Origin: Nitrospira defluvii
Lineage (GTDB): Bacteria > Nitrospirota > Nitrospiria > Nitrospirales > Nitrospiraceae
Reading direction: 5' to 3'
Assembly: GCA_011525625.1 (NCBI GenBank)
Contig: WYAX01000029.1
Location: 62,001 to 126,000, forward strand
DNA: 64,000 bases
In this document: one piece after another, positions 2,806 through 56,645 of the stretch
Layout of the letters: the number at the start of each line of letters is the position of its first letter
Position numbering within the stretch: the first letter of the stretch is position 1
The notes under the pieces: model-generated
What the model was told of the DNA's origin: nothing
What the model saw: the letters and a program-made list of their open reading frames with translations, nothing else
The model's database searches: none
Translations under genes and position numbers: made by a program

Positions 2806-3000
2806 GTGCAATATTGGGTGAAAATCGTGTTTGCCGACAATCAGGAACTGCTGGTGAAAGAGGCGATTCGTCACACGATCAGCGAGGACATGGAAGTGCT
2901 CGAAGTGGATACGGCCAAAGAAGTCATCATCGTGCCGATGAAGCAGATTAAGTACATCGCCTGCGATGCCACTGTTTTTGCTCAAAAATCAAAGACTTAG
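2806..3000 (+). CDS. Small conserved-looking protein; integration target, 3' end supplied by the element
   Basis: A 64-residue acidic protein starting at GTG 2806 with AAGGAG 9 bases upstream. It has no signal peptide or membrane segment and reads as alternating strands and helices; no function is recognised. The last 17 codons (from Lys49, KYIACDATVF) lie inside the integrated element. A second copy of this C-terminal coding segment stands at 8806-8856, reading KYIACDATVFAQKAKG-stop, and must be the original 3' end. The present protein ends AQKSKT instead, so integration kept the gene functional with conservative end changes. Downstream of proC by 15 bases. Confidence 0.8.
   Translation: MQYWVKIVFADNQELLVKEAIRHTISEDMEVLEVDTAKEVIIVPMKQIKYIACDATVFAQKSKT
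2949..2969. repeat. attL-like direct repeat
   Basis: The 21 bases beginning TAAGTACATC are identical to 8805-8825. They encode K-Y-I-A-C-D-A in the frame of the 64-residue target gene. Beyond the core the left side continues with partial similarity (matching codons for T-V-F-A-Q-K but different third bases), showing that the element carries its own version of the target gene's end. Confidence 0.85.
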
Positions 3001-4193
3001 GAGTTTTCGTGGGCTTTGGTCACGGTTTTGGTCACGGTTCCAGAACCGATTTTTAACGAATCCAGCTTATCGACCGCTTGCCGATTCCCGCCTGGAATCA
3101 GATGCCCATAGGTGTCACAGGTGATGGTAATCGACGCATGGCCCAGTTGTGCTTGGACGTATTTCAGGTTCTCCCCATTCGCGATGAGTCGGCTTGCATA
3201 GGTATGGCGGACACTATGCATATCCAGTCGTCGTAGTCCTGCCTTCGCGATCATCGGAAACCACAGTTTGTAGCGCAACCAATTTTCGGCCATATAACTG
3301 GGCTCCCGTCTGGTTCCGCCAAGGTTGCCTGGAAAGAGGATTTCAGTCGCTGGGTGTCCAGCGGCTGCCGCCTCCAGATCCTGTAGCTCGATCCATTCCG
3401 TCAGAGCCGTTGCGAGTCCCTGGGACATGTCCACCCGCCGGGCCTTCCCGTTCTTGGGTGTGCCCAGGATTCCGCGCGACCAGTTCCGTTGCACGTAGAT
3501 TGATCGGCTGTGAAAGTTCAGATCGCCCCGATGGAGTCCTAGCACTTCTCCGGCTCGGAGGCCGGTGCGAAAGAAGGTCAGGGCCATCGGGTAAAACAGC
3601 GGGCGTTCGCGTCGGACGGTCTCCAGCAACAAGCTTTCTTCTTCCGGCGTGAAGATCGCAAGTTCTGATTCCTCGATGGTCGCCGGCCGTTTCAGCAGTT
3701 TCCCGGAACGGAGGGCAGGATTATGAGTGATCAGCCCGTCTTCCACGGCTTCGGTCAATACCGCGCTGAGCGTGAGTAGCGCATTGAGAGCCGTATCGAA
3801 ATCGAGCCCCTTTTCAAGCAGCCCTGCGGCCCATGCTTTGATTCGGGGTCGTGAGATGGCGGAGAGTTGCGAAGTCCCAAAGGCGGGGAGGGCATGTTTT
3901 CGTAATCGCGACTCGTACGTCTTGATCGTCGTAACCTTCTTGCCGCGTGCGGGTTGGTTTTTGAGCCACGTCACGAAGTAATCTTTCAGGAGGATTGATT
4001 TTGTCTTTTTCGGTTTGGGAAAGAGTTTTCCCTCTCGTGCTTCGGCCTTCAACTTGCCATACAGCGTGCGTGCTTGGCTTTTGGTGTCGCACTTGTGCCA
4101 TGTCTGGCGTCCCTCTTCATAGACACGCACCCACCAGCCTTCCCGGCCTTTCCGCTGGGTAATCCCTCTATCCTTTCCCGCTTTTCTTGCCAT
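2997..4193 (-). CDS. Tyrosine-type site-specific recombinase/integrase
   Basis: A 398-residue integrase. The N-terminal third has an AP2-like/arm-binding segment (GWWVRVYEEGRQTWHKC) and a SAM-like core-binding domain (about residues 75-165). The catalytic domain shows all expected residues: Arg in TGLRAGEVLGL, Lys in NGKARRV, H-x-x-R in MHSVRHTY, His in QLGHASI and the nucleophile Tyr in CDTYGHL. The start is ATG 4193 with AAAGGAGG upstream; the longer open frame to 4415 is the shadow of the overlapping upstream gene. Its C-terminal codons (TVTKTVTK) form part of a 28-bp repeat found again at the right end. The stop overlaps the target gene's stop by 4 bases. Confidence 0.95.
   Translation of the reverse strand: MARKAGKDRGITQRKGREGWWVRVYEEGRQTWHKCDTKSQARTLYGKLKAEAREGKLFPKPKKTKSILLKDYFVTWLKNQPARGKKVTTIKTYESRLRKHALPAFGTSQLSAISRPRIKAWAAGLLEKGLDFDTALNALLTLSAVLTEAVEDGLITHNPALRSGKLLKRPATIEESELAIFTPEEESLLLETVRRERPLFYPMALTFFRTGLRAGEVLGLHRGDLNFHSRSIYVQRNWSRGILGTPKNGKARRVDMSQGLATALTEWIELQDLEAAAAGHPATEILFPGNLGGTRREPSYMAENWLRYKLWFPMIAKAGLRRLDMHSVRHTYASRLIANGENLKYVQAQLGHASITITCDTYGHLIPGGNRQAVDKLDSLKIGSGTVTKTVTKAHENS
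3016..3043. repeat. 28-bp end repeat, left copy
   Basis: Identical over 28 bases to 8661-8688, in the same orientation. Each copy contains two tandem TTGGTCACGGTT units. This copy lies inside the 3' end of the integrase gene, where it encodes TVTKTVTK. It could be an arm-type binding site for the integrase, or simply integrase coding sequence with the right copy a relic of another integrase gene. Confidence 0.75.
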
Positions 4194-4845
4194 GGCGGTC
4201 CTCCTTTCGTCGTGCGGTCTTGCGGTCAGTCTTCTGGCTGTCGCGCCACTTTCTCGCCGCGACGCGGTTTTGACAGCGGGGCTGACAGTACAGCTGGTCG
4301 CGTCTGATCGCGAAAAAGATCGTGGCGCATTCCGGACAACGCCGGATGTAGTCCCCCGTGTGGGCCAGGAGGTGGACAAACCGGTATTCAAACTCCTTCG
4401 CCTTGCGTTTCGCACTCACGATGACCGTCCCGGCCTCGTCAGAGCCCTCACCCGGCGACACCACGACCAGCGTCATCTGCGGAAACGTGAAGGCGGTGTA
4501 GCCTTCGTGCCAATAGAGCTCCAAGTGCTCCAGGACGGCAGCCTGAATGTCCAGGGCTTCTTTGCGACTGGGTATCGTCTGATAGTTCTTCGCGTGAGGC
4601 ACGCCCTCCACGCTCCAGCCACTCTCCGGGGCCACCATCCCGCCATAGCGCTCCCCCGTCTCATCGACAAAGGCCGCGACCTCAAACGCTACCAGCGTCC
4701 ATTCCGTGGGCGTCAAAGCCTCCAGATCGGTCTGTAAAAACCGGAGCACCCACCCCACGGCGCCATCCGGCATCGTCTGGATACGCTCCATCGCCTTCTG
4801 ATACTCCAGTTGAAAGTCCTGCTCTGCGTGCCCCTGTGCGCTCAT
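4168..4845 (-). CDS. CGNR-type zinc-finger protein
   Basis: A 225-residue protein. The C-terminal 55 residues contain a CxxC then YCxxxC-QNR zinc finger (RRCPECATIF, YCQPRCQNRVAARKWR), typical of CGNR-finger proteins, followed by a very basic tail likely to bind nucleic acid. The N-terminal 150 residues are predicted alpha/beta and unrecognised. The chosen start at 4845 (MSAQGH) has AAGGAG eight bases upstream; the frame is open to 4935. The stop lies 26 bases inside the integrase gene, so the two are translationally coupled and this protein may help control integration or excision. Common beside integrases of GC-rich islands; function is inference. Confidence 0.75.
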   Translation of the reverse strand: MSAQGHAEQDFQLEYQKAMERIQTMPDGAVGWVLRFLQTDLEALTPTEWTLVAFEVAAFVDETGERYGGMVAPESGWSVEGVPHAKNYQTIPSRKEALDIQAAVLEHLELYWHEGYTAFTFPQMTLVVVSPGEGSDEAGTVIVSAKRKAKEFEYRFVHLLAHTGDYIRRCPECATIFFAIRRDQLYCQPRCQNRVAARKWRDSQKTDRKTARRKEDRHGKKSGKG

Positions 4846-4987
4846 GCCTTCAGCTCCTTTTTCACGCTGACCCCTCCCTAAATTCCTGATCCCAACACCA
4901 CCGAAAAATGTGTCGTGCGAAAGGGCTCTCTGCACCGGAATGTGTTTGGCAAGTGTACCTCCGGCTTGTTAATGGGTGTCAAGAAGA

Positions 4988-5015
4988 ATCACGGCTCAAC
5001 AATATAAGCCGTGAT
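4988..5015. promoter_or_regulatory. Inverted repeat between divergent integrase and excisionase genes
   Basis: Perfect 9-bp arms ATCACGGCT (4988-4996) and AGCCGTGAT (5007-5015) separated by 10 bases, in the 202-bp divergent intergenic region of the element, 33 bases before the excisionase-like start. Position and symmetry fit an operator for a dimeric regulator; without a U-run it is a poor terminator. Confidence 0.5.
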
Positions 5016-5047
5016 CATTTTTGAACCATTCTTGAAGGAGGTGCCCG

Positions 5048-5257
5048 ATGGTCCCCAGTACAAAATTGATCACCATTCGAGAAGCGGCCAACCGGTTAGG
5101 GCTGAAGGAAAGCACGATCAGGAAATACATCCTGAATCGGCAGATTGCCTATGTGAAGCCGTCGGTGCGAGCCGTGAGGATTCCTATCGAAGAACTGGAA
5201 CGGATTCTGGCTGCCGGCCTGAGGCCGGCCATTCCTCAAGCGGAGGCTGCCCGATGA
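5048..5257 (+). CDS. Excisionase-like helix-turn-helix protein
   Basis: A 69-residue protein of the MerR/excisionase HTH_17 type: TIREAANRLGLKESTIRKYI forms the winged-helix recognition unit and RIPIEELERIL the following wing/helix. Such proteins bind att-site DNA and tilt tyrosine integrases toward excision, or act as repressors. The ATG has an excellent GAAGGAGG site. It is divergent from the integrase operon and overlaps the next gene by 4 bases (ATGA), so it starts a three-gene operon. Confidence 0.8.
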   Translation: MVPSTKLITIREAANRLGLKESTIRKYILNRQIAYVKPSVRAVRIPIEELERILAAGLRPAIPQAEAAR

Positions 5258-5967
5258 GCCGCTGGAAGGAGTTCCGGCGGGAGCCTGTCGCCGGGGAATG
5301 GACTAGGAAGCAGAAGCGGGGCTATCACCGCGTCCGGTCGCTACTCTGGTTCTGGGAATGCCACCAGTTCCAAGTGCTGTGGGTCACCCTCTCGACGGCA
5401 GAGGGCGGGGATGCCGAGAAGCTGACGTATCACCACAAGCAGCTGAGGCAACGCATCGAACGCCAGCTGGGGTTTCAGGGGTTGGAGTATTACCAGGTCC
5501 GAACGGAAGAAGGGCATGGGGTGCTCCATATCTTCTGGGCCTGGCGGGTGTCGGATGGGGAACGCGCTCGCCGCTTTTGGATCTCCCAGGAATGGCTGTC
5601 GGCGCAATGGCAAGCCCTCCACGGGGCTCCGGTCGTCTGGATCAAGGCGTATCAGCCCAGCCATCGTTCCCGGAACCGTCTCAGCCGCTACGTCATTAGC
5701 CAATATGTCCAGGATCAATGCGGCTACGTGAACATGTGCTGGTCCTGGAAACGGTCTCTGGGGTTCCCTATCAGCCGACTGTGGGAAGAGATGCGGTACC
5801 AATGGTCTACGAGGAACGCCTATCGCCGGATCAGGGGTGAGATCGAAATCCCAAAGATCGTCTTTCTGAAGACCTGGGAGGATCTGCTCTCGGGGCATCC
5901 CATCTGGTTTAGCGGCACCATTCTGCAACTCGTATTGGGGAAGGGGCTCGTCTACCAGGAGGTCTAA
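5254..5967 (+). CDS. Putative replication-initiator-like protein of the element
   Basis: A 237-residue basic, tryptophan-rich protein translated from an ATG overlapping the previous stop. The frame also runs upstream to 5011, but that part is the shadow of the HTH gene. The layout resembles rolling-circle replication-associated proteins: a VLWVTLSTAEGG strand, a helix, an EYYQVRTEEGHGVLHIFWAW strand pair where an HUH motif would lie (here only one His, H-I-F), and a later SRYVISQYV tyrosine helix and W-SW-RSLGFP segment. The second HUH histidine is missing, so either the assignment is wrong or the enzyme is altered. Unknown otherwise; it may be a DNA-binding accessory protein. Confidence 0.45.
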   Translation: MSRWKEFRREPVAGEWTRKQKRGYHRVRSLLWFWECHQFQVLWVTLSTAEGGDAEKLTYHHKQLRQRIERQLGFQGLEYYQVRTEEGHGVLHIFWAWRVSDGERARRFWISQEWLSAQWQALHGAPVVWIKAYQPSHRSRNRLSRYVISQYVQDQCGYVNMCWSWKRSLGFPISRLWEEMRYQWSTRNAYRRIRGEIEIPKIVFLKTWEDLLSGHPIWFSGTILQLVLGKGLVYQEV

Positions 5968-5969
5968 GG

Positions 5970-6212
5970 ATGATCTGGCATCGATGTAGTCTCAAGCAGC
6001 CCAGCCTGTTTGGTCCAGCCTGTTGCGGACGGGAAGCGACCACGTACGACCGGGCGAGGAAAGCCTGGCTCTGTCCTGAACATACCAAGGAACGACTCTG
6101 TGAATTCTGCCAGTCAGAACGGGCCTGGGCGAGACTCTGTTATGTCGTGGACGATGTCCTCAGTGAGGTCTGGCTCTGTGCGGATTGTGCGGGACTGACG
6201 CGGCGACGATGA
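5970..6212 (+). CDS. Small cysteine-rich (zinc-ribbon-like) protein
   Basis: An 80-residue protein with eight or so cysteines in pairs (ACCGRE, LCPEH, LCEFCQ, LCADCAG), consistent with one or two zinc ribbons. It begins 3 bases after the previous stop, preceded by AGGAGG, so it is the last gene of the HTH / Rep-like / zinc-ribbon operon. No enzymatic motif. Small zinc-ribbon proteins of this type accompany replication and integration genes in small islands; its role here is unknown. Confidence 0.6.
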   Translation: MIWHRCSLKQPSLFGPACCGREATTYDRARKAWLCPEHTKERLCEFCQSERAWARLCYVVDDVLSEVWLCADCAGLTRRR

Positions 6213-6540
6213 GACCATCAAATTAATGTGTCCCTGTCACCCGTCCACTATCCGCCACGGGTGAGAGGGAGCAATGCTCCTTCCTCGTACCAGGCGGCGA
6301 TGCGTCAGCTTGGCCGCCTCTCTGGTTGATCGTTGAGTACAAACACAGAATGAAGAACAGGGATACTGAAACCATGGGGAGAATTAAACGCAAAGATTCC
6401 GCCCAACGAGGCCGCCCGGCCGTTCCGGACCGATGGACCGGACGGCCGGGGGGATCGGGGGCGCAGCCCCCGCTTCACTTGATCTATATGGTCAAAGTAG
6501 GAAGCTTTTTTGTTGAAGTCTCGGCCACTAGGTAAATTAT
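6213..6540. other. Intergenic region with GC-rich hairpins
   Basis: No convincing gene. The open frame 6326-6535 (+) runs through two hairpins and has no ribosome site. The stretch changes from the GC-rich operon to the AT-rich cargo. The hairpins at 6415-6471 are the only clear structure. Confidence 0.5.
6415..6471. other. Two adjacent GC-rich hairpins (possible origin or terminator)
   Basis: The first hairpin has arms 6415-6428 and 6438-6450 that pair at 13 positions with one bulged base. Seven bases later, GGGGGC-GCA-GCCCCC (6457-6471) forms a perfect 6-bp stem. Neither is followed by a U-run, so a simple intrinsic terminator is unlikely. Their place behind the Rep-like gene and before the cargo fits a replication or transfer origin of the element; this is inference. 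Confidence 0.45.
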
Positions 6541-6619
6541 CTATGCCCCACTATTGACACACCATTTATTTTGCCGATAATAAGCAATAAAAATAGTCCA
6601 ATAGCACTAGTGGGGATAG
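6541..6619 (+). promoter_or_regulatory. Cargo-operon promoter bracketed by an inverted repeat
   Basis: A near-consensus sigma-70 promoter: TTGACA (6554-6559), 16-base spacer, GATAAT (6576-6581). It sits between arms CTAT(G)CCCCACTA (6541-6553) and TAGTGGGGATAG (6608-6619), which are inverted copies of each other over 12 bases apart from one extra G. The left arm abuts the -35 box and the right arm covers the ribosome-binding region of the first cargo gene at 6623. This arrangement suggests autoregulation, plausibly by one of the winged-helix-like cargo proteins. Confidence 0.65.
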
Positions 6620-6622
6620 CTA

Positions 6623-7000
6623 ATGGCGAAAGCAACTATTAAATCAAAAACGGGACTCGCAATAACGATTGAAGGAAATGATAGAGAAGTTGCCCATATT
6701 TTGAAGATTATCGAGCATGGCGACTCAGTTGGTCAGGGCAGGGGGGCGGCGACCAATGCCAAGGGATCTCACTCGCGAGGGGATGAGAAAAAGCGCTCCG
6801 CGACCTCCGATTTAATAATGGGATTAAAGGATGAGGGATTTTTTAATAAGCCAAGAGGGTTATCGGATATAGCAGGTTCATTGGAAGAAAAAGGTTACAT
6901 TTACCCCGTAACGACGTTATCAGGCGTAATGTTAGGTTTGGTTCAGAAGAGACTGTTGGGTCGGAAGAAAGTTGAAGGAAAGTGGGTATACGGAAAATGA
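6623..7000 (+). CDS. Cargo protein 1: small protein with C-terminal winged-helix-like domain
   Basis: A 125-residue basic protein, AT-rich relative to the host. The N-terminal 35 residues form a beta/alpha unit (TGLAITIEGNDREVAHILKI), then a Gly/Ser/Lys linker, then a conserved-looking domain at about 60-125 (DLIMGLKDEGFFNKP...). The same domain pattern, I-x-x-L-x-D-x-GFF-x-x-P, appears in the fourth cargo gene at 8262-8588, so the two are paralogous over this part. It ends with a predicted wing (KKVEGKWVYGK). First gene of the cargo operon, directly downstream of a strong bracketed promoter. Function unknown; DNA binding is inferred. Confidence 0.7.
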   Translation: MAKATIKSKTGLAITIEGNDREVAHILKIIEHGDSVGQGRGAATNAKGSHSRGDEKKRSATSDLIMGLKDEGFFNKPRGLSDIAGSLEEKGYIYPVTTLSGVMLGLVQKRLLGRKKVEGKWVYGK

Positions 7001-7061
7001 GCTCTGCAAATCCGGAGAGTATTTTTAAAACATATGAAAGAAGACTCTATGGGGATTGCAA

Positions 7062-7478
7062 ATGATAAAAGAGGAGATGTTGGCCAAGCTCGATCGCATT
7101 AAATCTCTTGCTGATGAAGTGATAGGCGAATTAAACGGAAAGCAGTCCGATCGGTCTAAGCCTCGTACAACTGGCGATAACAAGCACGTTCATGTGTCTT
7201 TTCATCCTAATACACTTGCTTTCATGAAACAGCATTCTCGAGGCTGCTCTGGACCGGAAAAGGTCACTCTCTTGTTGGCACGTTTGACTAAAGGAAACAT
7301 TGCCGAACAAGTCTCCTCCATAGAAATTGAAAAACAGTGGAACAAAATGAAGAGTGTCTTAGGAGGGAGATTTAATTCCGCGTATCTGAATAGAGCAAAA
7401 GCCAACGGGTGGATAGATAGCACTAAGCATGGAATCTACACGTTGACGAATGTATGGAATGAGGCTTTGAAAGCATAA
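7062..7478 (+). CDS. Cargo protein 2: small helical N-terminus plus winged-helix-like C-terminus
   Basis: A 138-residue protein from ATG 7062 (a TTG at 7056 is possible). The first 25 residues (EEMLAKLDRIKSLADEVI) are an amphipathic helix suited to oligomerisation, matching in style the N-terminus of cargo protein 4. After a charged linker, residues about 45-138 look like a winged helix ending YLNRAKANGWIDSTKHGIYTLT. No catalytic motif. The stop TAA is immediately followed by the ATG of the next gene, so the two are coupled. Unrecognised family. Confidence 0.65.
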   Translation: MIKEEMLAKLDRIKSLADEVIGELNGKQSDRSKPRTTGDNKHVHVSFHPNTLAFMKQHSRGCSGPEKVTLLLARLTKGNIAEQVSSIEIEKQWNKMKSVLGGRFNSAYLNRAKANGWIDSTKHGIYTLTNVWNEALKA

Positions 7479-8252
7479 ATGAGCCTTACTACTCTCAACC
7501 ACCTCCTAATCCCGTTTTTTGTCAAGAAGCACGTCGAGGCATCAACGCGCCATTTTGTGGGTATGGTCAAACATTTTGAGCTTCAGGAATGGGAAGACTG
7601 CATAGCAAAGGCTGGAAAATTTATTGAAGCCACTTTAAAGGCATTGTGGGTTCGCGCTGGAAAGACCGTGCCGGACGGAAGAGCTTTTAGCGCGGGCAGC
7701 CTGATTGATGGCTTGGGGCAGCTTTCCCAGGGATCTATTAGTGATTCCATTCGACTAACAATTCCGCGAGTAGGTCGTTTTGTTTATGAAGTCGCTAGTA
7801 ATCGTGGGGGAAGACACGATCCGAATGAAATTGACCCAAACGAAATGGATGCCAATGTCGTTACAATGAATTGTTCTTGGGTTCTAGCGGAGATGGTCAG
7901 GTGTGCTCAGCACGGGATTGTCGGTAGCGATGTGGCTAAGGTCATGGTGGACTCTCTGGTCAAGAAAAGGTATCCGCTCATTGAGGAAGTGGACGGTAGA
8001 ACATACTTCCACTTTCATGGAGCAAGCGCGGTCGATATTGCCCTGCTAGCGTTGGCACATGTATCGCCACGACGGATATCGTCTTCGGAGTTGTCTTTGC
8101 TGTTAAAAAGACATCGATTCTCAACCCAAAATGCCAGGGTCGCTGTTAGTCGAATTAGAAGATATGTGGATGAAGATGAAAATGGTGGAATGCGGCTATT
8201 AATACCAGGTCTTCGGAAAGCGGAGAATTTGAAGAATGGGCGGCAGACTTAA
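7479..8252 (+). CDS. Cargo protein 3: HEPN/Abi-C-like protein
   Basis: A 257-residue protein starting at the base after the previous stop. The N-terminal 140 residues are helical and end in a segment, YEVASNRGGRHDPNE...NCSWVLAEMVR, that resembles the C-terminal helices of Abi-C/HEPN-type abortive-infection proteins, where an R-N-x-G-x-x-H motif precedes a final helix. HEPN proteins are usually RNases; the exact R-x4-6-H spacing is not met here (R-G-G-R-H), so catalysis is uncertain. The remaining 110 residues look like another winged helix (SSSELSLLLKRHRFSTQNARVAVSRIRRYV). Predicted effector or sensor of the cargo module; inference. Confidence 0.55.
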   Translation: MSLTTLNHLLIPFFVKKHVEASTRHFVGMVKHFELQEWEDCIAKAGKFIEATLKALWVRAGKTVPDGRAFSAGSLIDGLGQLSQGSISDSIRLTIPRVGRFVYEVASNRGGRHDPNEIDPNEMDANVVTMNCSWVLAEMVRCAQHGIVGSDVAKVMVDSLVKKRYPLIEEVDGRTYFHFHGASAVDIALLALAHVSPRRISSSELSLLLKRHRFSTQNARVAVSRIRRYVDEDENGGMRLLIPGLRKAENLKNGRQT

Positions 8253-8261
8253 GGAGTTTAT

Positions 8262-8588
8262 ATGAGCGCAAATCCCTTGGAAGAAATCCTTGCGCGTTTA
8301 GACCGTCTTGAGAAGGTGGTTTTCCCCGCGTCGCCGAAGGTCAGGAGTGTTAAGAATCCATCGTCTGTAGCGGACAATGGCTTGCCCACCCATATACTAA
8401 AACTACGAGATCAGGGCTTTTTCCAAACACCCAAAACAATAAAAGAGGTTCACGGTAAGCTGGGATCTAGTTATCACTGCGAGGCAGATCGTGTAGCGAT
8501 GGCTTTATTGAGGCTCCAACGCAGAAAGGAGCTTCGAAAAGGTTCCAAGATCATAGGCAAAAGGAAGCAAGTCGCCTACATCTGGTAG
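8262..8588 (+). CDS. Cargo protein 4: paralogue of cargo protein 1 in its C-terminal domain
   Basis: A 108-residue protein. The N-terminal helix (NPLEEILARLDRLEKVVF) is a short coiled-coil, then a linker, then the domain shared with cargo protein 1 (HILKLRDQGFFQTPKTIKEV...RRKELRKG...KQVAYIW). It follows cargo protein 3 by 9 bases with AAGGAG-like sequence (taaggagttt) before the ATG. The combination of oligomerising helix, linker and winged-helix-like end is repeated in three proteins of this operon, suggesting a hetero-oligomer. No known family. Confidence 0.65.
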   Translation: MSANPLEEILARLDRLEKVVFPASPKVRSVKNPSSVADNGLPTHILKLRDQGFFQTPKTIKEVHGKLGSSYHCEADRVAMALLRLQRRKELRKGSKIIGKRKQVAYIW

Positions 8589-8660
8589 TCCACCCCTCGA
8601 TACCAACCCCGCGTTATATTCTCAGGCAGAAACTTTGGTCTTCCTCATATAAGTAGTTTC

Positions 8661-8688
8661 TTGGTCACGGTTTTGGTCACGGTTCCAG
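8661..8688. repeat. 28-bp end repeat, right copy
   Basis: Identical to 3016-3043. Read on the minus strand it encodes GTVTKTVTK followed four codons later by a stop (KLLI-TGA), as in the C-terminus of the integrase, but a stop codon lies just upstream in that frame. It may therefore be the relic of an earlier integrase gene end, or an arm-type binding site. Confidence 0.7.
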
Positions 8689-8804
8689 GTCAAATTTGGT
8701 CATAAATGGTCGCAACCAAGTTGGGGCGGCGATGGCCACTTTCTCTTTATATTTCATGGACTAGCGCGATAAATCGCAGTCAGTCGCAATTTGGGCCTTT
8801 CGAA

Positions 8805-8825
8805 TAAGTACATCGCCTGCGATGC
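8805..8825. repeat. attR-like direct repeat
   Basis: Perfect copy of 2949-2969. Codons continue in frame to TAG 8854-8856, giving the original end of the target protein. Confidence 0.85.
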
Positions 8826-8856
8826 GACGGTATTTGCGCAGAAGGCAAAAGGGTAG
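8806..8856 (+). pseudogene. Displaced original 3' end of the 64-residue target gene
   Basis: Seventeen codons including stop, reading KYIACDATVFAQKAKG, homologous to the last codons of the gene at 2806-3000. It has no start of its own and was cut off by the integration. Comparing the two ends shows two terminal residue changes brought in by the element. Confidence 0.8.
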
Positions 8857-8960
8857 GGGCGTGACGTTTTCCCAAAACGACGGCAATCTAAAGTTATAAC
8901 AATATGTCATAGTACGGCCCGCCGCCGACTCTGTAAATCGATGAACGGGCAGGGACCCAA

Positions 8961-10844
8961 ATGGACTCAGATCGCAACTCAGTCATAGAGCTCTTCAAAC
9001 CAGAGCGGCAATACTGTGTGCCATTCTATCAACGGGCATATGTTTGGAATCAGGAAGACCAATGGTCGCGCTTGTGGTCCGACATTCAGGAAAAGGCTGA
9101 GGCACGCCTTTCCGGCCTCACTGCCACGCCTCATTTCATGGGTGCCGTTGTTCTCGACCCCCAAGACCGCAAGAAACTCATCGGCGTTGAGAGGGTTCAC
9201 ATCATCGACGGCCAGCAACGCTTCACGACAATTCAATTTGCGCTCGCGGCGCTTTCAATTATGCTCCGCGCATGGGGGCACACCGATGTCCTCTCGGTCG
9301 TTGAGGCATGTCTGCGCAACTCCGATGAAAGGAATATGCGCAACAAGAAGTCTGAGGTTTTCAAAGTCTGGCCCACGTTCTACGACCGGAAGTCATACGC
9401 GCAGGCTATCCACGCAACGAAGCTCGACGATCTTCGGATCTCGTTTCCTGAACATTTTACACAGCAGAGAAGCCTCAAAAAGATTGGTGTGCGGCACCCG
9501 CCAGCGCTGGCCGCAATTTGGTATTTCGCAACACAAATGGACGCGTGGCTACCTAAGACGGGCAAGCCAGGCCAAGAATCCGACGAAGCCTTGGCCTCTG
9601 CCATCCTGGAGGACCTTGTCGTCGTCTCGATCACGCTGGATGCCGAAGATGACGCGCAAGTCATTTTCGAGACTCTCAATGGTCATGGCGTAGAGCTGAC
9701 GGCGAGGGACTTAATTCGCAACTATGTATTCCTTCGTGCCGAGGCGGAAGCAGTGGATGCGGAGAAGTTGTACCAAGAGCAATGGCGACGATATGAGAGC
9801 GATGGATGGAAACAGGATGAGCGGCGCGGTCGTCTCGTGCGGTCACGCGTTGAATGGTTTATCCAGACCGTTCTGCAGGCAGAGATGCGCGACGACATCG
9901 ACCAAGGGCGGATATATGCGGAATACCAACGCTATACACGCCAAACCAATCTGACCGCATCAGCGCAGTTGACGACCCTTGCCAACTATGCGGATGCATA
10001 TGAGGCCTTGCTCGATGGTGATGAGAGCAAGCCTATCGGACGCTTCGGCAGGCGCTACGCGCCGTGGGACGCGAGTACGACCTACGTGCTAGCTCTCGCA
10101 ATCGCAAAGAGCGGAGTCTCTGAACAAGAACAAGACGCCATGCTCGGCATGCTTGGTTCCTATCTTGTGCGCCGTGCTATCTGCGGCCTTACGAACAAAA
10201 ACTACAACAAGGTCTTTCTTCAACTGCTCAAAAACGTGAAAGGAAACCCGCTTGATCCTGAGAGTCTTCGTGACGCCGTCTCGGCATTCACTGGGGAGGC
10301 CACGCGCTTTCCCACAGACGATGAGTTTCGCGCAGCAATCCTCCGTGGTCCGATGTATCCGGGGCGTCTCGATGCGCCGAAGGTGCGGTCGATTCTTGTC
10401 GAGCTGGAGAATGAGCTACGGACCCAGCGTACGGAGGAACCTGTTGCTCCCGCGCTGGCAAACTTGGACATCGACCACCTGATGCCCCAGGAATGGCCTG
10501 CCTACTGGCCATTGATGGACGGAACGAGCGCGACTGCGCAGGAACTGGCTCAATCGCAGACTGCCCAGTGGGTTGATGAGAAGAAGTTGACGGACCGGCA
10601 GAACTCCTTGCTCGCACGCGAGGCTGCAATTCCAACGTTCGGTAATCTCACCTTGCTTCACTACGGGACTAACAGGGCTGCCAAGAATCGAGAGTTCGGA
10701 TTCAAGCGCGACCTGTTCTTGCAACATTCAAATCTACACCTGAACCGCGAAATACTGATTGCTGAAAAGTGGGACGAAGATAGCATCCTCAAGCGAGCGG
10801 AGGTGCTTAGTATTAATGCGCTCCGAATCTGGCCGGGGTTGTAG
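8961..10844 (+). CDS. GmrSD-type (DUF262-DUF1524) type IV restriction endonuclease
   Basis: A 627-residue single-chain enzyme of the GmrSD family, which cleaves modified (for example glucosylated hydroxymethylcytosine) phage DNA. The N-terminal DUF262 (GmrS) part has PFYQRAYVW near residue 23, IDGQQRFTT near 82 and FETLNGHGVELTARDLI, the ParB-like NTPase signatures. The C-terminal DUF1524 (GmrD) His-Me nuclease part has DIDHLMPQEW near residue 504 and the downstream FGNLTLLHYGTNRAAKNREFGFKR asparagine region. All key motifs look intact. A CAGGGA ribosome site precedes the ATG. It lies just outside the right repeat of the island, with no obvious partner gene. Confidence 0.9.
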   Translation: MDSDRNSVIELFKPERQYCVPFYQRAYVWNQEDQWSRLWSDIQEKAEARLSGLTATPHFMGAVVLDPQDRKKLIGVERVHIIDGQQRFTTIQFALAALSIMLRAWGHTDVLSVVEACLRNSDERNMRNKKSEVFKVWPTFYDRKSYAQAIHATKLDDLRISFPEHFTQQRSLKKIGVRHPPALAAIWYFATQMDAWLPKTGKPGQESDEALASAILEDLVVVSITLDAEDDAQVIFETLNGHGVELTARDLIRNYVFLRAEAEAVDAEKLYQEQWRRYESDGWKQDERRGRLVRSRVEWFIQTVLQAEMRDDIDQGRIYAEYQRYTRQTNLTASAQLTTLANYADAYEALLDGDESKPIGRFGRRYAPWDASTTYVLALAIAKSGVSEQEQDAMLGMLGSYLVRRAICGLTNKNYNKVFLQLLKNVKGNPLDPESLRDAVSAFTGEATRFPTDDEFRAAILRGPMYPGRLDAPKVRSILVELENELRTQRTEEPVAPALANLDIDHLMPQEWPAYWPLMDGTSATAQELAQSQTAQWVDEKKLTDRQNSLLAREAAIPTFGNLTLLHYGTNRAAKNREFGFKRDLFLQHSNLHLNREILIAEKWDEDSILKRAEVLSINALRIWPGL

Positions 10845-55082: not shown

Positions 55083-56645
55083 TCAGCGGACGTTGACGAA
55101 TCGGCCCTGGGCCATGGCGCGGAGGTGAGCAATCTCCTCGCTCCTGGTGACGGAGAGCGGGACGGTCTGAGTCAGTTCTTCGAGTAACAGGTCGGTGGTC
55201 AGCGCCTGCTTGCGGTACAACGCGCGATAGAGGGCGGCGACCACGGCCTGTTCGATTTCCGATCCGCTGAATCCTGTACTGGCGTCGACGATCTGCTTCA
55301 GATCGACTCGGGTATGATCCTGTTTGCGGAGGCCCAGGTGAATGGTCCAGATGGCCGTGCGTTCTATGGCGTCCGGGAGGTCCACGAAGAAGATTTCATC
55401 GAACCGGCCTTTGCGCAGCAGTTCCGGCGGCAGCGACGTGAGAGTATTGGCCGTGGCGACCACAAAGACCTCCTGACGTTTCTCCTGCAGCCAGGTCAGA
55501 AACGCTCCGAAGAGGCGCCGGCTCAGGCCCGCGTCCGCATCAGCGCTCCCTCCACCAGCCACCATAGCCTTTTCGATCTCGTCGATCCACAACACGATCG
55601 GTGAGAGCGATTCCGCCATGTCGATCGCCTTGCGAAAGTTCTTCTCCGATTCGCCGACGAATTTGTCGAATAGTCGACCTGCGTCGAGTTTCAGCAGCGG
55701 CAGGTGCCATTCGCGCGCAATCGCTTTGGCCGCCAGCGATTTGCCGCACCCGGGGACCCCCACCAACATGATGCCGCGCGGCGGGCTCAGATTGAGGGCT
55801 TTGGCTTCGGCCGTGAAGCCCACTTTCGCCCGTTCCAGCCAGGATTTCAAATTGACGAATCCGCCCAGTTCGAAACGATTGTCTTCCAGCGGATAATATT
55901 CGAGCAGACCCCCGTCCCTAATCGCCTGGACCTTTCGCTTCACGATGGTCTGCACGTCGTCCGCGGAGAGAGTACCGTCTTCGACGATGCATTGAGTCAC
56001 GACCTGACGGGCCTGATGGAGAGTCAATCCCTGGAGTGCGCGGAGGATCGCCTCCCGTTCCTGTGCGGAGGGCCCGCTGTCCGCCCCCTTGGATGTGCTC
56101 ATGGAATTGAGCAGGCTCTGGACGACGGTTGTCGAGGCGGGGCGGCGAGCGGCCGTTCTGGTGCCCAACGACTGCAAGACCGTCTGGAGCATCGCCTGCA
56201 GTTCATCGCGACCCGGCAGGTGCAGGTCGAGCCGGACGGCGATGTGTTCCAGATCGGGAGGCAGAGTAATAGGATGACCGGTCAACAGGCACGTGGATCG
56301 GGAGCGGCCATAGGCGGCGGCCACCTCGCGCAGTTGGCGAGCCGCGGCGGCGTCCTGGAGGTGCGGCGTCAAATCTTTGAGCCAGAAGATCGCTTCGACG
56401 GTCAATCCGTTGAGATGCTGGAGGAGCGCCGACGGAGCGGCGGTGAGTTTGTTGACGGTCTGGGAGTCGTCGCACCGCGTCAGGCCGCGGGTGATCGACC
56501 ATTCGAACAGTGGCATCCGTTCTTGCGCCGCCACGGACTGGAGGAGGGCGAACACGCGCTCCTCTTCCACCGTTTCGATCACGATAAGCGGATGGGCGGA
56601 GCGAATGAGAGTACGGAGATCGTGCACGCTGGTGGAGACCGGCAT
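55083..56645 (-). CDS. Ycf46-like AAA+ ATPase
   Basis: A 520-residue AAA+ protein. The N-terminal 240 residues are the degenerate domain typical of Ycf46-like ATPases ([17 protein letters not shown]). The AAA module has Walker A GVPGCGKS, Walker [12 protein letters not shown], sensor-1 VVATANTL and arginine finger GRFDEIFFV. Ycf46 proteins of cyanobacteria are linked to stress and carbon use; the general role is unfolding or remodelling of proteins. The gene is 100 bases downstream of the J-domain/ERCC4 gene on the same strand, so the two may be cotranscribed. Confidence 0.9.

Follow-up and report, generated by a model that had tools for sequence, protein, structure and literature searches.

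What does a short, AT-rich operon of four unnamed genes do inside an integrated element of Nitrospira defluvii? The operon lies in a 64,000-nucleotide stretch of contig WYAX01000029.1, which we analysed as a whole and call the window. An earlier reading made from the sequence alone (the sequence-only reading) had proposed that the genes, here named A, B, C, and D, encode three winged-helix-like proteins and one HEPN/Abi-C-like candidate effector, and that together they could form an unrecorded defence module. Following up this proposal by computation, we find that the four genes are best explained as one member of a modular operon family, carried as cargo by an integrative element of Nitrospirota in a slot that often holds anti-phage systems. 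The operon is a good candidate for a defence system that is unnamed in the databases searched, and C is likely its effector, with a predicted HEPN-fold domain joined to a winged helix.

The open reading frame (ORF) list contains four co-directional genes on the forward strand at 6623-8588, in agreement with the sequence-only reading (Table 1). C starts at 7479, directly after the last position of B (7478), the gap between C and D is 9 nt, and B encodes 138 amino acids from an ATG at 7062 or 140 from a TTG at 7056. The claimed AT-richness also held: the G+C content of 6541-8588 is 0.455 versus 0.593 in the whole window, and among 1240 sliding segments of 2048 bp only one, the one overlapping the cargo, was equally low. 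The strong promoter that had been noted corresponds to the motif TTGACA-16-GATAAT at 6554-6581, matching at 11 of 12 positions. Because the total number of promoter-like sites in 6200-9000 was not above that in shuffled sequences (5 versus a mean of 3.9, standard deviation 1.9), we gave weight only to this strong site. Compared with the near-identical copy in locus L009, the four genes carry 19 synonymous and 14 non-synonymous differences. They look to be under purifying selection because the resulting ratio of non-synonymous to synonymous rates (dN/dS) is 0.21; the ratios per gene, each resting on few changes, are 0.16 for A, 0.68 for B, 0.17 for C, and 0.10 for D.

The HEPN fold is typical of RNA-cutting enzymes, and C is predicted to have it. 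An AlphaFold2 model of C built with 8 sequences had a predicted local distance difference test score (pLDDT) of 84.6 and a predicted template modelling score of 0.63. In VIA comparisons, residues 8-147 of the model matched the HEPN structure 2hsb (Z 12.7, 3.4 Å over 124 residues), followed by 3o10 (Z 11.7) and 1o3u (Z 11.4) and also by 1wol and 4nqf, and 7 of the first 12 rows were titled HEPN or Csm6. The model thus places a four-helix HEPN-like fold in the helical part, which ends at about residue 147. Residues 178-257 were predicted to form a tri-helical core with a wing, and matched the winged helices 1tbx (Z 9.4) and 4rs8 (Z 9.0). The HEPN-like part of the original assignment of C therefore stands at the level of predicted fold, including the expected HEPN-like helices; its Abi-C part found no Pfam match to Abi_C, and the C-terminal winged helix had not been foreseen.

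We then aligned C with 23 relatives, excluding a 131-aa partial protein (L039, G721). R109, H113, W134, E138, and R141 are invariant in all 24 proteins, and the invariant R and H lie in a loop between two helices, beside the least sure stretch of the model (residues 111-120, pLDDT 55). Position 106 is R in 15 of the 24 proteins, giving them an Rx6H motif whose R is followed by N or S; in the other nine it is A or V, and exactly these nine, the window's C among them, have R at position 112 (the NRGxRH form). Rx6H with N or S after R is the HEPN RNase form according to Anantharaman et al. 2013 (PMC3710099). The form Rx4-6H with a polar residue after R, by which we recognized a putatively active RNase, was not found in the window's C, so that the proposed HEPN effector has the predicted fold and is missing the canonical active-site arginine. 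The nine NRGxRH proteins form one clade (support 98/99) in a tree made without the motif columns. B is present in the 8 loci of this clade that have upstream sequence and in 0 of the 15 other loci; because a single clade is involved, we count this co-occurrence as one event and not as independent evidence. It suggests, and does not prove, that the function of the arginine moved together with the gain of B as a new subunit; alternatively, the active site in this clade is weakened or dead.

The three small partners are less sharply defined. The AlphaFold2 model of A reached a pLDDT of 67 overall and 83-84 in residues 61-90, and has a beta-beta-alpha start. Its residues 50-125 were predicted to fold as a winged helix (VIA Z 9.7 to 3mwm, 1.6 Å over 67 residues). 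B and D are probably of the winged-helix type as well, judging from their sequence pattern. Hence, of the three winged-helix-like proteins proposed originally, A was recovered by modelling, B and D are placed by pattern, and C joined them unexpectedly. The domain I-x-x-L-x-D-x-GFF, said to be common to A and D, is visible as IMGLKDEGFF in A (65-74) and ILKLRDQGFF in D (45-54); the direct match between the two proteins was not significant (E 0.27 in a search within one genome), and the link between them is a third protein, encoded in L010, which is 35% identical to D and 28% to A. Orthologues of A share 33-40% identity, B is 31-41% identical to six proteins encoded directly upstream of C relatives, and orthologues of D in L025, L026, and L044 share 26-33%. 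Scanning 36 small proteins of the operon family against Pfam gave weak matches only, a few of them to winged-helix families.

Relatives of C are scattered over distant lineages. Counting each search's starting genome, and counting once any locus that carries several ids, we found 3 real relatives in 245 genomes of the phylum; a fourth match (L006, G177) was an antisense ORF in a pilus-type gene and was judged spurious. Relatives occur in 5 of 175 genomes of the window's family, 10 of 396 in the phylum of an Acidobacteria metagenome-assembled genome (MAG; one of them partial), 2 of 95 in the phylum of a Rokubacteria MAG, and 3 of 96 in the order of an alphaproteobacterial MAG. A scan of genome contigs gave 7, overlapping the other counts, and a further relative was found on a plasmid, of Natronomonas. 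No relatives were found in viral contigs searched with C and two C alignments, in phage records searched with two C proteins, or in plasmids searched with D. A fold search of BFVD gave no match at E 0.001 or better. A plasmid match of A in Phyllobacterium (E 0.005) had no C annotated or noticed alongside and was not used.

As had been asked of the proposal, the same four genes do occur together elsewhere: all four orthologues are present in the order A-B-C-D in L009 and A-D-B-C in two other Nitrospirota genomes (L025, L026). More broadly, C recurs in Acidobacteria, Alphaproteobacteria, and other groups in the company of between one and four small proteins. In L010 a protein of winged helix-turn-helix type and a GFF protein precede B and C, in L011 three small proteins do so, and L044 has D-B-C. 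L043 has B and C after a different small protein, plus one more small gene downstream; in L054, C is accompanied by A and two small proteins of other kinds, and in L053 a protein of winged helix-turn-helix type is followed by a fused small protein before C. In nine loci C has a single small protein (L014, L028, L029, L045-L049, L051). In 18 of 18 loci measured among the 24 with C, the end of the small gene falls somewhere from 47 nt inside C to 15 nt ahead of its start; ORF starts were used as listed (mostly the longest), except that a later one was chosen in L010. The other six include the window-like L009, L012, which is cut by the contig end, L027 with a stop inside C, the unclear L050, and L007, which has no upstream small gene.

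Some of these loci have features of their own. The fused protein of L053 (4697-5380) carries the GFF-motif domain (E 3e-12) behind what reads as a different small-protein type, directly upstream of C. In L052 (4761-6805) the C relative is split by an apparent insertion sequence, by reading, and the small partner gene upstream is kept. On the Natronomonas plasmid (L007, 5925-6173), a short protein just downstream of the C relative reads as a lone beta-beta-alpha piece, and L029 alone was noticed to have, downstream of its C relative, a gene that reads as nucleotidyltransferase-like (8054-8566).

The four genes are cargo of an integrative element, as had been claimed. A 48-nt direct repeat with 83% identity between its copies (2946-2993 and 8802-8849) bounds an element of 5.86 kb, whose left end lies in its target, the gene of a 64-aa protein. 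The element contains, in order, genes for an integrase-like protein (by reading), an excisionase-like protein, a 237-aa hallmark protein, and a small zinc-ribbon-like protein, and then the four cargo genes (Table 1). The 6804-bp contig of L009 starts and stops inside the same repeat and has the same backbone and A-B-C-D, with an extra stretch between them. The MAG to which L009 belongs is titled Nitrosomonas; the contig may be misbinned there because its hallmark protein is 96.6% identical to that of the window. A GmrSD-type type IV restriction enzyme, identified by Pfam and PADLOC (2.4e-188), had been noted next to the island and cited for the defence idea; it is encoded just beyond the right repeat (8961-10844). 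Since it lies outside the element and was found in 0 of the 55 other element loci scanned, we rejected it as a partner of the operon.

Table 1. Features of the integrated element and its cargo operon (positions in the window).
Feature	Position	Strand	Description	Evidence
Left attachment repeat	2946-2993	+	In 3′ end of the gene (2806-3000) of a 64-aa protein	
Integrase-like protein	2997-4415	-	472-aa ORF; probably begins at a more internal start	Named by reading; same ORF in L009
Element gene	4168-4935	-	255 aa; cysteine pairs in C-terminal part	Weak PHROG HNH-endonuclease match (7.4e-4); conserved in L009
Excisionase-like HTH_17 protein	5048-5257	+		Pfam HTH_17 5.8e-9; TIGR01764 3.2e-9; PHROG 66 6e-8
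Hallmark protein	5254-5967	+	237 aa; perhaps replication-related (by reading)	No Pfam match (scanned as a longer ORF)
Small zinc-ribbon-like protein	5970-6212	+	Ends the common backbone	Weak YjdM zinc-ribbon match (0.0035, below curated cut-off); in L009
Promoter-like site of cargo operon	6554-6581	+	TTGACA-16-GATAAT	11/12 positions
Gene A	6623-7000	+	125 aa; beta-beta-alpha start (low confidence), predicted winged helix at about 50-125	AlphaFold2; VIA; orthologues 33-40%
Gene B	7062-7478	+	138 aa; N-terminal helix, conserved C-terminal half	Winged-helix-like by reading
Gene C	7479-8252	+	257 aa; predicted HEPN 8-147, beta hairpin 168-177, winged helix 178-257	AlphaFold2; VIA; alignment
Gene D	8262-8588	+	108 aa; coiled-coil-like N-terminal helix, C-terminal part with GFF motif	Orthologues 26-33%
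Right attachment repeat	8802-8849	+	Element end	

We asked what the same slot carries in sister elements. Among 175 genomes of the window's family, 29 encode the 237-aa hallmark protein, with up to 6 matches per genome; of 29 genomes listed under the same genus, 24 encode it, and the window's own genome has six copies. From 56 element loci (the window, L009, and 54 fetched) we kept 33 elements complete at both ends and excluded 23 on short contigs or lacking a clear repeat pair; the ends of L009 were placed by hand at the contig ends and those of L104 taken from the second-best repeat. The complete elements are 4.9-10.7 kb long (median 8.0 kb) and differ in cargo, and 21 of the 33 have repeats of at least 45 nt with 95% identity or more. 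Of 32 repeat pairs listed, 27 read as 3′ ends of tRNA genes and 5 lie in the 64-aa gene (the window, L085, L102, L104, L113). These five elements hold five different contents, among them A-D in the window, PDC-S46 in L113, and, in L104, a 1019-aa protein that matches PDC-S33 partially; a sixth locus with the 64-aa gene, L135, has no complete element. L102, at the same chromosomal site as the window's module, encodes two unknown proteins of 287 and 219 aa (4349-5964), a possible further candidate system. Several cargo sets across the element family are unnamed (window 2946-8849 and loci L085-L138).

Known defence genes are prominent in this cargo. We clustered the cargo proteins and took 57 representatives of at least 180 aa, some probably antisense ORFs, leaving out one cluster (c0) of ORFs linked through a common stretch after the backbone. 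Their scan against PADLOC was evaluated for the best 25 of 199 families by member count, with mad3 matches discounted. Ten large cargo proteins all matched PADLOC at 1e-5 or better; this is a chosen set, since the tenth by size (492 aa, read as a histidine kinase) was replaced by a 386-aa ATPase beside the nine largest of the 57. At least nine tenths of both protein and model were covered for Upx (2.6e-151), a type IIG restriction-modification protein (0), PDC-S46 (2.9e-255), DRT UG14 (5.9e-198), and PDC-S06 (7.5e-63). A match to PDC-S65 (7.2e-54) covered about three quarters, and the remaining four were partial or weaker. As a control, we took the ten longest ORFs that the window has beyond 14.7 kb; 1 of the ten matched PADLOC, with a partial AAA match. 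This ORF (55086-56645) encodes an AAA ATPase with a partial IetA match (1.5e-27). Our defence reading is based on this cargo of the sister elements and not on the neighbouring GmrSD gene.

The claim that the module is unrecorded was borne out in the libraries searched. Pfam, NCBIfam, PADLOC, and PHROGs gave few, weak matches and name none of the window's four proteins, and none of the 24 C proteins was named by Pfam, NCBIfam, or PADLOC. In PADLOC-DB 2.0.0, A, C, and D had no match at E 1, and B had weak matches to mad3 (0.0035) and AbiEi (0.036); we rejected a mad3/MADS link because the mad3 model rings in 14 of 14 control genomes. The 24 C proteins matched PADLOC models only weakly, at best NDT_II-A (3.9e-5, in 2 of the 24). 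Pfam HEPN was reached by 3 of the 24, at best with E 0.048. Abi_C (PF14355) and Ymh (PF09509) were absent from the 11 Pfam families reached by any of the 24 at E 0.1, the presence of these two models in the Pfam copy used being unverified. The matches listed for open-licence literature contained no description of such an operon or of Nitrospira defence elements, and an earlier description elsewhere is possible; nor is the operon described in the available parts of PMC3710099, PMC13092281, and PMC12839542.

How does the operon compare with systems that are known? In MNT-HEPN toxin-antitoxin systems a HEPN protein is paired with a nucleotidyltransferase. The operon resembles them in that a gene with a predicted HEPN fold lies directly beside a small partner gene, whereas the window-type partners appear to be of winged-helix type, and neither Pfam scans nor reading of the element genes showed an adjacent minimal nucleotidyltransferase. 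The helical domain of Abi_C has an R...H motif, a likeness that C shares with both Abi_C and Ymh. Ymh is listed as HEPN in PMC3710099. C resembles the HEPN superfamily set out there in the predicted fold of residues 8-147, in the R and H in an inter-helix loop, and in the Rx6H of the 15 relatives outside the window's clade. It differs in that, throughout the nine-member clade, the arginine position is taken by A or V and the residue preceding H is R, in an acidic motif ExxR in place of Ex3[KR], and in combining a winged helix at the C-terminus with several small partners, which the available part of that paper does not describe. Like the Tn7-like and other defence-carrying elements covered in PMC8649781, the carrier joins a common mobility backbone to cargo that varies and includes defence genes; in contrast to the Tn7-like elements, its backbone is of integrase type, about 3.2 kb long, and it targets the 64-aa gene or sites resembling tRNA ends.

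We propose that the operon is an abortive-infection-type module, with a HEPN effector held by small winged-helix proteins, and we put the probability of this candidate defence system at about 0.5. In such a module, the beta-beta-alpha or coiled-coil-like N-termini of A, B, and D would bring the three proteins together, their winged helices would attach to DNA, and C would be held by them in a state in which the HEPN domain is inactive. Infection or the entry of foreign DNA would alter the A-B-C-D complex, and C might then pair with itself, cut RNA, and halt the growth of the infected cell.

A number of observations weigh against this proposal. Foldseek matches of C were not significant (best E 0.32), and its top VIA Z of 12.7 lies below about 13, where matches may reflect merely a common helical bundle. 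The window's C, reading A106-S-N-R109-G-G-R112-H113, has no canonical HEPN arginine. Outside the element, the neighbours of C operons are mostly housekeeping genes by reading of ORF starts, and a flank match to mad3 is probably UvrA, given how readily that model rings in control genomes. Five of the ten sister cargo matches are partial, some to general ATPase models, and the control ORFs were chosen by size only and may include false ones. The L085 element at the 64-aa gene has short ORFs only, cargo elsewhere reads as a response regulator, histidine kinase, and partner set (six elements) or as transport proteins (L117), and the A-D module occupies 2 of the 33 complete elements (the window and L009). 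Since ten of ten cargo proteins and one of ten controls matched PADLOC, alongside kinase and transport cargo, the slot looks enriched for defence and not restricted to it. We also considered defence islands around the operons of other phyla as general support and rejected this argument: the flanks read mostly as housekeeping, and the PADLOC matches of 56 flank proteins were mixed, with 33 families, the best 25 of the 33 each reached by one protein. Matches to TIR-TM (6.5e-61), a type IV restriction enzyme (6.9e-85), DrmD (1.5e-47), and PD-Lambda-5_B (6.5e-40), untraced to their loci, may be real defence neighbours by sequence match.

Could the operon instead be a toxin-antitoxin or addiction module, with C as a HEPN toxin and the small winged-helix proteins as antitoxin(s) and repressor of the operon, by which the cell would retain the element? 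The predicted HEPN fold of C, its carriage on a mobile element, the small gene directly upstream of it in all loci measured, and the nine loci with a single partner are consistent with this. We nevertheless find it rather unlikely, as three or four small partners are present in the window, L010, L011, L025, and L026, exceeding the need of a two-gene system, and many relatives sit among apparent chromosomal housekeeping genes, where addiction is less expected. Apparent housekeeping neighbours would also suit a DNA-binding regulatory or chromatin-like complex that affects transcription in the host or in other mobile elements, with C as a HEPN scaffold devoid of catalysis; both folded members, A and C, have a predicted winged helix, and the canonical arginine is lost in the window's clade. 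A mere scaffold leaves the invariance of R109 and H113 in 24 of 24 proteins unexplained, and Rx6H with N or S after R is kept in all 15 relatives outside the clade, which makes this explanation doubtful to us. That the operon directly follows the common backbone might also mean that it serves the element's own life (excision, replication, or exclusion of rivals), being neither defence nor toxin. This seems very improbable, as 31 of the 33 complete elements do without the operon and relatives occur in other phyla, with no such backbone noticed in the stretches read there.

The abortive-infection-type module thus remains our preferred reading. A bolder form of it, which we advance tentatively, is that the operon belongs to a new class of HEPN immunity, in which several small winged-helix proteins read foreign DNA or the state of replication and gate a HEPN effector, and in which the NRGxRH clade with B has moved its catalytic arginine away from the Rx6H site to the position just ahead of the histidine. 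If true, this would be a multi-subunit HEPN module with no ATPase found among its genes, missed by the libraries searched, and one clade would offer a natural active-site change testable by single substitutions. The carrier is useful in its own right: its backbone and ends are clear, and because its variable slot holds known defence genes beside unknown ones, the unnamed cargo makes a short list of candidates.

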